A stretch of DNA of 37,516 nt from Bacteroidota bacterium (GTDB lineage: Bacteria > Bacteroidota > Bacteroidia > Flavobacteriales_F > PHOS-HE28), in the NCBI GenBank assembly GCA_014584605.1, contig JACTMO010000046.1, positions 1 to 37,516 of the forward strand, read 5' to 3'. A program made the translations under genes and the position numbers. Position 1 is the first letter of the stretch. Each line of letters starts with the position of its first letter. The notes under the pieces are model-generated. The model was not told where the DNA came from. It saw only the letters and a program-made list of their open reading frames with translations, and did no database searches. This document shows positions 29,389 to 33,915 of this stretch, piece after piece.

Positions 29389-29988
29389 TCAGCGCTCGTT
29401 CTTGAGCTTCTCCATCTCCTTGTCGAAGGTCTCCTTGAACTTCTCGTAGTCGTAGTCGATGCGAAGGCGCTCGTCCTGGCTGAGGCGCTCGTTGTACTCG
29501 CTGAGCAGGTCCTGGGCGCTGAGCTCGATGGCCAGGTAGCTCTTGTAGGTGTTCTGCGGGGTCTTGGTGAGCTTCTCGCAGATGGTGCGGGTGCCGCTGA
29601 GGCGCTGGTCGGTGACCTCGCGGGTGAGGCCCTCGAAGCGCTCGGCGATCTCCTCCTTGTTGTTGAGCTCGCGGCTGTTGACGTAGTTGTCCACCACGCG
29701 CTTCACGGCGGTGTTGATGTCGGCGGCCAGCTGTCCGCGGGCGGCGTTGAGGGCCTTGCTCTTGGCGGTCTGCTGGTCCATGCTCTCCCCTACGGCGTTG
29801 GCGCGGAAGAACTCCTTGTTGGTGAAGTACTCGGGGCCGGAGCAAAGCACCACCACCTCCACTTCGTTGGGGGGCGGCTGGGTGTTGGTCTCGGCGATCT
29901 TCTTCTTGGGCTTGCAGGAGGCCATGCCGGCGGCCAGCAGGGCTGCCGACAGCACGAAGGTGGCGGAACGTAGGGTCGGAGTGCTCAT
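29389..29988 (-). CDS. Small LPP20-type lipoprotein
   Basis: The product (199 aa) has a lipoprotein signal peptide with lipobox AGMASCKPKKK (Cys25), then an LPP20-like domain around FFRANAVGESMDQQTAKS, followed by ALNAARGQLAADI. The C-terminal third is charged and helical (YDYEKFKETFDKEMEKLKNE). LPP20 proteins are outer-membrane or periplasmic lipoproteins of mostly unknown role; FlgP of Vibrio is an example. It is the last gene of the DUF4476/CsgG/LPP20 set, 75 bases after its neighbour, and has its own sigma-54-type promoter (30025-30040). It is followed by a terminator. Confidence 0.8.
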   Translation of the reverse strand: MSTPTLRSATFVLSAALLAAGMASCKPKKKIAETNTQPPPNEVEVVVLCSGPEYFTNKEFFRANAVGESMDQQTAKSKALNAARGQLAADINTAVKRVVDNYVNSRELNNKEEIAERFEGLTREVTDQRLSGTRTICEKLTKTPQNTYKSYLAIELSAQDLLSEYNERLSQDERLRIDYDYEKFKETFDKEMEKLKNER

Positions 29989-30024
29989 GGTCGTCGACTT
30001 GGTTCGTGTCGTTGGGTACTGTTT

Positions 30025-30040
30025 TGCGAACGGCGTGCCA
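30025..30040 (-). promoter_or_regulatory. Candidate sigma-54 (RpoN) promoter for the small LPP20 gene
   Basis: The minus strand reads TGGCACGCCGTTCGCA. It matches TGGCACGnnnnTTGCW with one mismatch and has the correct 10-base interval between the GG and GC. The predicted start of transcription is about 30015, 27 bases before the ATG. The resemblance to the element at 33875-33890 makes chance less likely. Confidence 0.65.
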
Positions 30041-30063
30041 AACTTGCGGAATGCGCGCGTTTC

Positions 30064-31446
30064 CTACAAGATCGCAGCGATCAGCGCGGGCACCAGGTCC
30101 TTGCGGAGGTCCTGCGCACCTTTCTTGTAAGCCTCCAGGGCGGCCTTGTCATAGGCCAGCTGCACGCCCTTCACGCCCTGGCGGCCGGTCTGGTGCACGA
30201 GTTCGCCGGTTCGCCGGTCGGTACAGGTGAGGGTGAGGTCCAGGAAGGCGGTGTGGAAGCCGCTGGTGGCCCCTCCCTCGCGGGTGTCGGCGGCAAGCCG
30301 CAGCACCAGGTCGCTGTCGGCCTCGCGGTCGGTGAAGCGGAAGCCGCGGCGGGCGAGCTCTTCGCGCAGGGCGACGGCCAGGCCGGCCTGCGGCAGGGCG
30401 TTGCCGTAAGCGCGTTCATCGGCCTTCAACAGCACCCGGGGCAGGTGCAGGTCGATGGGCACGTGCAGCTCGGGCACGCTGAGCCCGGCGGTGAGGGCAC
30501 GTGCGGTGGCGGCATCTCCCACCCCGCCCATCAGGGCTTCCAGGTCCAGCCGCACCAGCAGTTCCGGGGCGTTGGCGTCCAGCGACACGCCTTCCACGTT
30601 CACGCGGGCATGACCGTCCGCATCGGTGCGTTTGGCCAGGCCCACCTTGCCGGTCGCGCCGGGATAGGCGGCCGTGAGGGGCACCTGGGCCATGTCGCGC
30701 TGGGCGGTGCCCGAGCCGTGGCGCGCCCGGATGAGCAGCTCGCGGCGATAACCGTTGGCGGGCTCCAGCACGCAGCGCTCCGGGAGGCTGGTGAGCGCAA
30801 GGCCGCCCGTGAGGCCCTGAAGCCCTGCGTACAGTTCGTTGGCCAGCACCACCTGGCGCCCGTCCACCTCCACACGGTCGGCCTCGCCCCAGTGGTCGCG
30901 CAAGGCCATCAGCGCCCGCAGCTCCAGATCGAAGGCGCCCGGAAGGTCGCCGGTGCCCAGCGCAGCGCGGCTGCGGGCGTGCAGGTCCGCGGCCTGGGCG
31001 ATGGCGGCGCTCTTCCGCTCGGCCTGCAGCCGGGCATGCTCGGCCTTGCTCAGGCGGTAATAGGTCCACAGTTCAGTCCCGCTGTCCCAGCTGTCCACCA
31101 GCTCAAAGCCTTCGATCTGCTGGCTGGTCCGGGTGCGCACGGTGCTCGTGTAGCTGTCGGTGAACGAGCCGCGGCTGTCCAGGGTGTAGAGCAGGCTGTT
31201 GCCTTCGACGGTGACGCTGATCTCGCTGGCCAGGTCGTTCAAGGCGTTCTGCTTGGCGGCCTCCTGGTGATCGGGCCGGCTCTTGGAGGCGATGCCGATG
31301 CCCACGTAGTAGTTGCCGGTCACCGGGCGGCTGTCCACCCAGGCCGGGCGCACGGCGGGGGACGGCGGTGGCGGCTGCTGCACCTGCTGGGCGGGTTTGC
31401 AGGCCCCCAACAGCAGCAGCACGGACCAGCTCAGAACGCGGTGCAT
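30064..31446 (-). CDS. Large LPP20-domain lipoprotein
   Basis: The product (460 aa) has a lipobox in LLLLGACKPAQQ (Cys16) and a Pro/Gln linker. An LPP20 domain (about 45-135) contains NYYVGIGIASKSRPDHQEAA, QNALNDLASEISVTVEG and the ELWTYYRLSKAEHARLQAE region. A second part (about 200-450) is beta-rich with a carboxypeptidase-like or CsgG-like flavour (GVKGVQLAYDKAALEAYKKG). The gene directly follows the CsgG-like gene with a 1-base stop/start overlap (TGATG), indicating translational coupling. It probably acts with CsgG at the outer membrane; the details are inferred. Confidence 0.8.
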   Translation of the reverse strand: MHRVLSWSVLLLLGACKPAQQVQQPPPPSPAVRPAWVDSRPVTGNYYVGIGIASKSRPDHQEAAKQNALNDLASEISVTVEGNSLLYTLDSRGSFTDSYTSTVRTRTSQQIEGFELVDSWDSGTELWTYYRLSKAEHARLQAERKSAAIAQAADLHARSRAALGTGDLPGAFDLELRALMALRDHWGEADRVEVDGRQVVLANELYAGLQGLTGGLALTSLPERCVLEPANGYRRELLIRARHGSGTAQRDMAQVPLTAAYPGATGKVGLAKRTDADGHARVNVEGVSLDANAPELLVRLDLEALMGGVGDAATARALTAGLSVPELHVPIDLHLPRVLLKADERAYGNALPQAGLAVALREELARRGFRFTDREADSDLVLRLAADTREGGATSGFHTAFLDLTLTCTDRRTGELVHQTGRQGVKGVQLAYDKAALEAYKKGAQDLRKDLVPALIAAIL

Positions 31447-32828
31447 CAGGGGAGTTTCTGGGCGAGATGGTCCACCACTTCGCGCGCGATGCGGTCGCCG
31501 GCCTTGCGCATGGCATCGTCCAGCAGGGTGGCCACCGGCTTCACCTCGCGCGGTGCGTTCAGCAGGGAGCGCAGGTCGCGCCGCGCCCGGTCGCTGGGGT
31601 CCAGCACGCCGTTGAGGCTGGGCAGCAGGGCATCGCGGTTGCCGGAATAGCTGGCGTAGTAGGCCTGGTCCTGTTCGCTCACGTCCACCACGTTGCTCAC
31701 CAGCACCTCGCCGGTCTCGAGGCTCACCAGCCGGAAGCTGAAGGAGGTCGTCACCAGGTTCTGCTGCAGGTGCTCGGTGTACTCCACGGGTTTGTACTTG
31801 GTCACCAGCACCGACTCACCGGTCTCGGGCACCTTCTGGCGCACACTGTAGGCCTCGAACCCCTTCTTGGTGCTGCTGCGCGGTTTGCCGGCCTCCTCGC
31901 GGTAGCTGATCAGGTCGCCCATCAGCACGGCCTTGGCGCCGATGAGGTTGCCCACCTGCACGGCGGTGGCCTGGTCCACCACGCCGCTGAGGCCCAGGCG
32001 CTGTTCCTCCAGGATGCGGTCCAGGTTCTCGCGGTCCACCACCTTCAGGAAGGGATCGCCCGAGCCGGTGATGCCGCTGACGGTACGCGCCTGCAGCCGC
32101 GCGGCCAGGTCGGTGCGCTTGCTGCTGCTGGCGAAGGGCAGCACGGCGATGGAGTACTGCCCCTTGGTGAGGGCCTCGGCGCGCAGGGCGGCGGCGTCCT
32201 TGTACGCGGGGTCCTTTTCCAGCACACGGCTCAATTGCGCGTAGGCGTGGCGGTAGCGCCCGCCCTCCAGGTCGGTCCGGGCGGCGCGGTACAGCGGTTC
32301 CATGTAGGCGATGCTCTGCAGGCTGCTGGCGTCCTTGTAGCCGGGCTCCAGCTTGGCGATGCGGGCGAAGGTGGCCTCGGCGGCCTGGAACTCCTGGCGC
32401 TCCAGCTGCCCCTGCCCCTGGGTGTAGAGGGACACGAGGTGCTCGCCCTTCACACGCTCGAACTCGCGCTGCTGGTGGTCGGGGATCTCGAGCACCACGC
32501 CCAGCCGGTTGGCGCGGTCGGCGTAGGCCTTGGCGTCCAGGTAGGTGTCCACGGCCTTGGCCAGGTCGCCGCTGCCGTTCACCTCGCGGAAGAAGGCGCC
32601 GAGCTTGTCGTTCAGCAGGCTCTGCCCCGCCTTCTTGAGGCCGATCTTGGCCTCCACGTTGCGCTGGTCGCGCTGCAGGGCCTGCAGGTACATGTCCGCC
32701 GCCTCCGCATAAAGCCCGGCCTCATCCAGCTTCAGTCCTTTCTTCACGAAGCTCCGCGCGCCGGAACAGCCCGCCCAGAGCGCGGCGGCGACGGCAAGCA
32801 CAAGGAGCGGGCGGCCCGGGGTTCCCAT
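31446..32828 (-). CDS. CsgG-like outer-membrane lipoprotein with N-terminal TPRs
   Basis: The product (460 aa) has a lipobox in AALWAGCSGAR (Cys21) and helical TPR-type repeats up to about 210 (AADMYLQALQRDQRNVEAK, YRHAYAQLSRVLEKDPAYKD). A CsgG/LpoB-like domain follows, with SIAVLPFASSSKRTDLAARL, VVDRENLDRILEEQRLGLSG and SFSFRLVSLETGEVLVSNVV. CsgG forms the curli secretion pore; LpoB-type relatives activate penicillin-binding proteins. No curlin genes are nearby. The gene starts 16 bases after the DUF4476 gene and overlaps the LPP20 gene by 1 base, so it belongs to one operon. Confidence 0.85.
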   Translation of the reverse strand: MGTPGRPLLVLAVAAALWAGCSGARSFVKKGLKLDEAGLYAEAADMYLQALQRDQRNVEAKIGLKKAGQSLLNDKLGAFFREVNGSGDLAKAVDTYLDAKAYADRANRLGVVLEIPDHQQREFERVKGEHLVSLYTQGQGQLERQEFQAAEATFARIAKLEPGYKDASSLQSIAYMEPLYRAARTDLEGGRYRHAYAQLSRVLEKDPAYKDAAALRAEALTKGQYSIAVLPFASSSKRTDLAARLQARTVSGITGSGDPFLKVVDRENLDRILEEQRLGLSGVVDQATAVQVGNLIGAKAVLMGDLISYREEAGKPRSSTKKGFEAYSVRQKVPETGESVLVTKYKPVEYTEHLQQNLVTTSFSFRLVSLETGEVLVSNVVDVSEQDQAYYASYSGNRDALLPSLNGVLDPSDRARRDLRSLLNAPREVKPVATLLDDAMRKAGDRIAREVVDHLAQKLP

Positions 32829-32844
32829 GGCGCTGGGCGGCTTT

Positions 32845-33834
32845 TCAGCGGCTGCGTACGTAATCGTTCAGCTCATCCACCGAGCTCTCGAAGGTGAAAG
32901 CGTCGTTGAGCTTGAAGTAGTTGCTCAGGTCGAAGGTGTGGTCGTAGGCGAACTTGGCGAAGTCCAGCTTGCTCTCCTCGAAGGTGAAGAGTTCCATGAT
33001 GCCCTTGACCTGGTCCACGGTGAAGCAGCGGTCGGCGGCCACCTGCTTGGCCACGCTCATGCGGGTGTCCTCGAAGGTCTTGGAGCCGATGCTGGCCTTG
33101 GCATCGGCGAATTCCGAGGCGCTCATGGGCCAGGGGCAGCCGATGCGGCCGGTGTAGCCGGGCATGGTGTACACCGCCGGCTCGGGCGGACGGGTGGCCG
33201 AGGTCTCCACCGGCACATCGTCCGGGATGGTCTGCGTGGTGGTGGTGGTCGTGGTGGTGGTCGTGGTGGTCGTGGTGGTGGTCGTGGCGTCGTTGACGTT
33301 CACGTTCATGTTCACCCCCACGCCGTTCAGGTCGATGGTCATGTTGACGTTCTCGCCCGTACCCGGCCGGGTGGAGGTCTGCTCGGTCACGGTGACCGTG
33401 GTGCCGGTGCCGCCGGGGGGCGGAGGCACATCGTCGTGGAACTCGGTCGGGCGCGGTTTCTCGTCGATCACCAGGGCGCTGGCGGCGGTGCCCAGAGCGG
33501 CCTCGCCGGTGGGACGGAAGACCTTCTCGCCCTTCTTGTTGGTGGTGACCATCATGGTGTACTCCTTGCCCAGGGGGAAATAGCCCTGGCGGCGCAGTTC
33601 GGGGATGGACAGGTCCTCGAAGCGTACATGGAGCATGGGGGTCTCGTTGCGGATGCCGGTGGCCACCACGCGAGCGGCGGGAAGTTGGTTCTTCGGCTCG
33701 CCGTCCACCATCAGGGTGAAACGGGCGCCATCGTCCGAGAACAGGACGATGTCGGTGGTCCGAGGGTCCATGGATTGCGCCCGGACCGAGGCGGACAGCA
33801 GGAGGACGGCGGCAAGGGGAGCGTGGCGGAGCAT
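32845..33834 (-). CDS. Secreted DUF4476 protein with polythreonine tract
   Basis: The product (329 aa) has a signal peptide (about 1-20). An N-terminal beta-rich part (25-130) is followed by a Pro/Thr-rich linker with an Asn-Val alternating stretch (GVGVNMNVNVND), then 17 consecutive threonines (184-200). A C-terminal DUF4476 helical domain (about 240-325) contains CFTVDQVKGIMELFTFEESK and DLSNYFKLNDAFTF. DUF4476 is common in Bacteroidota and of unknown function. The gene heads the operon with the CsgG-like and LPP20 genes and has both a sigma-54-type and a -7-type promoter upstream. ATG 33834 fits the signal peptide; the longer frame crosses the promoters. Confidence 0.88.
   Translation of the reverse strand: MLRHAPLAAVLLLSASVRAQSMDPRTTDIVLFSDDGARFTLMVDGEPKNQLPAARVVATGIRNETPMLHVRFEDLSIPELRRQGYFPLGKEYTMMVTTNKKGEKVFRPTGEAALGTAASALVIDEKPRPTEFHDDVPPPPGGTGTTVTVTEQTSTRPGTGENVNMTIDLNGVGVNMNVNVNDATTTTTTTTTTTTTTTTTQTIPDDVPVETSATRPPEPAVYTMPGYTGRIGCPWPMSASEFADAKASIGSKTFEDTRMSVAKQVAADRCFTVDQVKGIMELFTFEESKLDFAKFAYDHTFDLSNYFKLNDAFTFESSVDELNDYVRSR
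33235..33285 (-). repeat. 17-codon polythreonine microsatellite inside the DUF4476 gene
   Basis: 51 bases of ACC and ACG codons (mostly ACC) encode 17 threonines in a row. All units are multiples of three, so slippage would change tract length without a frameshift. It separates the linker from the DUF4476 domain. Confidence 0.9.
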
Positions 33835-33850
33835 GGCTTCAAATGGTTTG

Positions 33851-33858
33851 CGAAGGTA
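33851..33858 (-). promoter_or_regulatory. Bacteroidetes-type -7 element for the DUF4476 operon
   Basis: The minus strand reads TACCTTCG, one change from TAnnTTTG, 16 bases before the ATG and just downstream of the sigma-54-type element. It may provide a housekeeping transcript in addition to the regulated one. Confidence 0.45.
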
Positions 33859-33874
33859 GGTCCGACATCGCCTT

Positions 33875-33890
33875 GGCAAGGGCTGTGCCA
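33875..33890 (-). promoter_or_regulatory. Candidate sigma-54 (RpoN) promoter for the DUF4476-CsgG-LPP20 operon
   Basis: The minus strand reads TGGCACAGCCCTTGCC: GG at -24, GC at -12, 10 bases apart, matching TGGCACGnnnnTTGCW at all but one of the core positions and at the last base. Predicted transcription starts near 33865, about 30 bases before the ATG. A small hairpin (33894-33910) lies just upstream. Confidence 0.7.
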
Positions 33891-33915
33891 AAGGCCGGGA
33901 ACAGCCCGGTCTGAT

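Follow-up and report, generated by a model that had tools for sequence, protein, structure and literature searches.

The locus raises the question of whether two elements resembling sigma-54 promoters, lying before the first and the last gene of a four-gene envelope set, are genuine promoters, and whether they make the set a single regulatory unit, as an earlier note on this DNA had proposed. The window, that is, the whole stretch analysed, comprises 37,516 nucleotides of a Bacteroidota genome (assembly GCA_014584605.1, contig JACTMO010000046.1), and the features discussed here are listed in the order in which they are read.

33875..33892, minus strand: site 1, sigma-54-type -24/-12 element TTTGGCACAGCCCTTGCC, upstream of the DUF4476 gene (from sequence and conservation)
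33851..33858, minus strand: -7 element TACCTTCG for the Bacteroidota housekeeping sigma factor, 18 bp after the TTG at 33879-33877
32845..33834, minus strand: first gene, DUF4476 protein with signal peptide and poly-Thr linker (Pfam PF14771, E 1.2e-19)
31446..32828, minus strand: CsgG/LpoB-like protein with TPR (Pfam PF03783, E 1.5e-11)
30064..31446, minus strand: LPP20-domain lipoprotein (Pfam PF02169, E 2.3e-12)
30020..30042, minus strand: site 2, sigma-54-type -24/-12 element TTTGGCACGCCGTTCGC(AAAA), internal, before the last gene and without a -7 element
29389..29988, minus strand: last gene, small lipoprotein of predicted LPP20 fold

Sigma-54 (RpoN) promoters have the -24/-12 consensus YTGGCACGN4TTGCW. 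Read on the minus strand, site 1 has its TGG at 33890-33888 and its GC at 33877-33876; site 2, which reads TTTGGCACGCCGTTCGCAAAA at 30042-30022, has its TGG at 30040-30038 and its GC at 30027-30026. Exactly 10 bases separate GG from GC in both, the spacing of the -24/-12 class, and the sequence thus bears out where the earlier note had placed the elements and how it had spaced them. At site 1, TTGC is followed by C where A or T is expected, and the window's own site 2 has TCGC at -12. The ATG at 33834 is ~40 nt past the end of site 1 and the ATG at 29988 ~36 nt past the end of site 2; the distance of 25–30 bases to the gene starts given earlier needs correction, as the sites end 36–41 nt before the start codons and the shorter distance fits only the inferred transcription start.

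The genes form a cassette of a CsgG/LpoB-like protein, an LPP20 lipoprotein and a small LPP20-fold lipoprotein, here with DUF4476 ahead. Within the DUF4476 gene, window positions 33230-33290 encode ~20 threonines in a row (ACC/ACG repeats). NCBIfam named no cassette protein above its cut-off, and the last gene's own protein had no Pfam match; the best of three relatives matched LPP20 at E 0.0029. We predicted the structure of this protein from a 34-sequence alignment (mean pLDDT 80), and the best solved match of the model in Foldseek was H. pylori Lpp20 (5ok8; E 2.2e-4, probability 1.00), while its profile aligned with the cassette's LPP20 protein at 89.8% probability. Because of the fold match and the profile comparison, the last gene is predicted to encode a second LPP20-fold lipoprotein, giving the cassette two. 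The gaps between genes are small or negative among the first three and 75 nt ahead of the last, and it is therefore likely that the four genes are read as one transcript with an additional internal promoter.

A plain match to the pattern is not above chance at either site. The consensus with up to two mismatches matched the window 14 times, mostly inside genes, against 21.6 expected, and the genome contained 66 consensus matches against 133 for the backwards pattern, giving no genome-wide excess. The statement that the sites have no counterpart elsewhere in the window holds for non-coding DNA but not overall. It is conservation, not consensus counts, that raises both sites above chance.

Within the genus, site 1 was present upstream of DUF4476 in 27/30 loci in the form TGGCAY-N5-TTG[CT]C, in which T, GG, C, A, TTG and the final C never vary. 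Across 39 genomes, the strict pattern TTTGGCAYN5TTGC matched 43 times and its backwards control 11 times; it thus occurs about once per genome, nearly always at the DUF4476 promoter, which made up most of the matches. The members of the genus met here were all metagenome assemblies. Site 2 was found as TTTGGCAC upstream of the small lipoprotein in 29/30 genus loci. Its G located 12 bases past the first G of GG is invariant; the -12 element takes the forms TTGGA, TTGGC, TCGC or similar, such that the GC pair is not kept in most genus members, where TTGGA occurs and the second base is often changed, and the TTG is shifted by one base, with TGG-N7-TTG in 23/32. Abutting site 2 on its upstream side, positions 30043-30060 hold a GACGCGCATTNCGAAG-like block conserved in the genus, possibly an activator site or a remnant of the LPP20 gene end.

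Scanning a collection of genomes of 84,980 species gave 80 loci. Assemblies labelled Flavobacteriales, Cytophagales, Sphingobacteriaceae and Vicingaceae have these genes in the order CsgG-LPP20-lipoprotein or LPP20-lipoprotein, and the sites before the lipoprotein, such as TTGGCCTTATAATTGCAT (Cyclobacteriaceae), TTTGGTATTTGATTTGCGT (Ohtaekwangia) and TTTGGCACAGTTTCTGAAAA (Vicingaceae), vary in letters and are equal in spacing. In a score-free test covering the loci outside the GC-rich group, TGG-N8-TTG, the exact sigma-54 spacing, occurred in 32/48 loci and any other spacing in 6 at most. We also applied a simple score, by which an upstream region was counted if it fell in the top 5% of its own locus (P < 0.05). 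The regions upstream of DUF4476 (26/27) and of the small lipoprotein (70/80) were mostly counted, compared with 0/21 and 0/19 for the controls DUF423 and PEPCK, 1/29 and 2/29 for the internal cassette genes CsgG and LPP20, and 3/15 for the divergent neighbour using the same intergenic region; the score demands GG and G, so these P values favour a sigma-54-type motif, and the loci share ancestry. Where DUF4476 is absent, LPP20 (TTTGGCACGGATGTGGCAATAG, Cytophagales) or CsgG (TTTGGTACAATCATTGCAAG) has an equivalent site ahead of it; in still more distant loci the site precedes the lipoprotein in 4/5. A few lineages (e.g., L275 and L287) lack site 2.

The two sites differ in what surrounds them. 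Housekeeping promoters of Bacteroidota consist of a -33 TTG and a -7 TAnnTTTG, the latter about 17–23 bp after the TTG. At site 1, TAnnTTYG, which we take to be the phylum's housekeeping -7 element, follows the TTG by 16–19 bp in 27/27 genus loci. The sigma-54 -12 and the housekeeping -33 overlap at this site, because the same TTG (33879-33877) belongs to both. Site 1 is thus probably a dual promoter, combining a sigma-54-type element with a conserved -33/-7 pair; the fully conserved -7 alone could account for transcription, and either both sigma factors would be active or a waiting sigma-54 polymerase would block the other. No TAnnTTYG -7 element was seen at site 2 in the genus (0/29 loci), which by its sequence and position is a putative internal promoter serving only the last gene. 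Regulation as a unit, as first proposed, is therefore too simple: site 1 does head the four-gene run, but it overlaps a -33/-7 promoter, and site 2 would serve the last gene only.

The machinery that such promoters need is encoded in the genome. The search recommended in the earlier note recovered rpoN (E 2.2e-53), which was also present in 56/58 relatives sampled, along with three full sigma-54 activators. Receiver domains occur in two of these, whereas the third consists of AAA+ and Fis-type HTH only; together with the conservation of both sites, these agree with their assignment as sigma-54-type promoters. The receiver-less activator, an LptE-like gene and groES lie on one strand at L374 (G000:C75) 3443-7261, and the order is identical in G010 (L373). 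In two distant genomes, Chryseosolibacter indicus and one other, rpoN is within ~1–3 kb of the cassette, close to the LPP20-lipoprotein genes but arranged differently in each (L296 1804-3258; L368 4031-2580).

Our promoter scan covered 1.58 Mb of the 3.74-Mb genome with simple gene calls, and the two window sites ranked second and third among its non-coding matches. The others precede genes for pirin, an OMP beta-barrel, groES, a 47-aa protein and an activator, and further motif-bearing genes in relatives encode a LolA-like protein and a 270-aa secreted protein; similar sites hence precede other genes that are mostly envelope or chaperone genes, and the envelope link made in the earlier note extends to these candidates. 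The groES site is kept in relatives, where it has no -7 element (0/20). A passage of PMC12316311 states, with a citation, that groES depends on sigma-54 in B. thetaiotaomicron, and this serves as an outside check on the motif. In several genus members, genes for a conserved 45–47-aa protein of unknown family carry a TTTGGCACGNNNCTTGG-type site ~45–50 nt ahead (L163, L169, L148, L161 and L173). A paralog of the lipoprotein (G000:C14:53951-54532, L128; also L129-L147) has TGGCAYGnTnTTTTCTTTG shortly before its start in most relatives; as a sigma-54 site, this element was rejected, the -12 G being replaced by T.

Three other explanations of the conserved elements have to be weighed. Chance matches to a loose consensus would agree with window and genome counts no higher than controls, but a block kept in dozens of genomes, with a preferred spacing and gene-specific controls, leaves this with next to no credibility, and we consider it refuted by conservation. 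More serious is the idea that site 1 is a housekeeping promoter only (-33 TTG, -7 TAnnTTCG) and that the TTTGGCA upstream belongs to the operator of some regulator, the imperfect palindrome TTGGCA-N7-TGCCAA. The 27/27 conservation of the -7 element among relatives fits this, as do the GGCA...TGCC arms kept at site 1. However, the GG-N10-G spacing is rigid whereas the -7 shifts by 3 bp, and the outer T's are kept on one side alone. The same block moreover stands at site 2 and groES without a -7 element (0/29 and 0/20) and without the palindrome, which was rejected as an operator, being present at site 1 only, and distant families alternate GGCAC, GGTAT and GGCCT yet hold the GG...TTG spacing unchanged. 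We judge this explanation unlikely.

A motif bound by some other transcription factor, recognizing TTTGGCAC-N5-TNG near its targets, would account for the noncanonical -12 bases of the genus (TTGGA and TTGAC; TTTTC at the paralog promoter). Yet Cytophagales carry the canonical TTGCA or TTGCG at the corresponding place, the site lies ~45–60 nt before the ATG, site 2 and groES showed no further promoter, and rpoN and activators are retained almost everywhere, all of which makes such a factor more improbable still.

We therefore consider both sites genuine RpoN promoters, serving an outer-membrane lipoprotein cassette that is old in Bacteroidota, with a probability of roughly 0.8; comparison supports sigma-54 control well and regulation as a single unit only in part. 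RpoN binding, the start sites and the acting activator are our inferences. RpoN polymerase would form a closed complex on each -24/-12 element, and transcription would start ~12 nt past the -12, only upon ATP hydrolysis by an AAA+ activator. Because a housekeeping -33/-7 promoter shares bases with site 1, the first gene would probably combine basal with inducible transcription, or the two would be mutually exclusive. The last gene would gain its own activator-dependent expression from site 2, added to read-through. The receiver-less activator near lptE and groESL is a candidate for this role, and the signal, at a guess, is envelope or protein-folding stress. A wider picture, which we put forward as doubtful though conceivable, is that sigma-54 is the ancestral controller, in much of Bacteroidota, of a dedicated outer-membrane machine of a CsgG/LpoB-like protein and two LPP20-fold lipoproteins, of the chaperonin and of outer-membrane proteins; in this picture a PspF-like activator would drive an envelope-stress response, and the -33/-7 of site 1 would act as a sigma-factor switch.

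The novelty lies in the targets, the promoters being of a known kind. Searches for literature on DUF4476 and on Bacteroidota RpoN yielded almost nothing; RpoN is near-universal in the Bacteroidota sampled (56/58) and its targets are little studied in the literature searched. A promoter fixed before one cassette in many families provides a concrete, testable target set, and it gives sigma-54 a connection with LPP20-type lipoproteins that are not part of a flagellar system. Among cultured relatives, Ohtaekwangia koreensis and Chryseolinea are examples with the cassette.

With known sigma-54 promoters, the sites share the GG-N10-G(C) spacing and the TTGGCAC -24 element, and their genome likewise encodes rpoN and AAA+ activators; they differ in the degenerate -12 of the genus (TCGC, TTGGA, TTGAC) and in the overlap of site 1 with a -33/-7 promoter. 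The fold of the last-gene protein resembles that of H. pylori Lpp20 (HP1456, 5ok8), although identity is 16% and the gene context is another. In Vibrio, FlgP is of the LPP20 type. The Vibrio H-ring genes flgO, flgP and flgT belong to the FlrC/sigma-54 class III (PMC6504787), thus linking genes for LPP20-type outer-membrane lipoproteins to sigma-54 as predicted here. They are, however, part of a flagellar cascade, whereas our cassette encodes a CsgG-like protein and, in many cases, DUF4476, and no flagellar genes were seen near it. The envelope theme of the targets is alike in Francke et al. 2011 (PMC3162934), who described sigma-54 as a controller of the bacterial exterior, although neither Bacteroid- nor CsgG appears in their main text; these and the Vibrio genes may be taken as parallels, not proof. 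Closest to home, the sigma-54 promoters of groES/grpE in Bacteroidota come from a survey (PMC12316311) whose main text is silent on LPP20 and CsgG, and a conserved groES site of like kind is found here.
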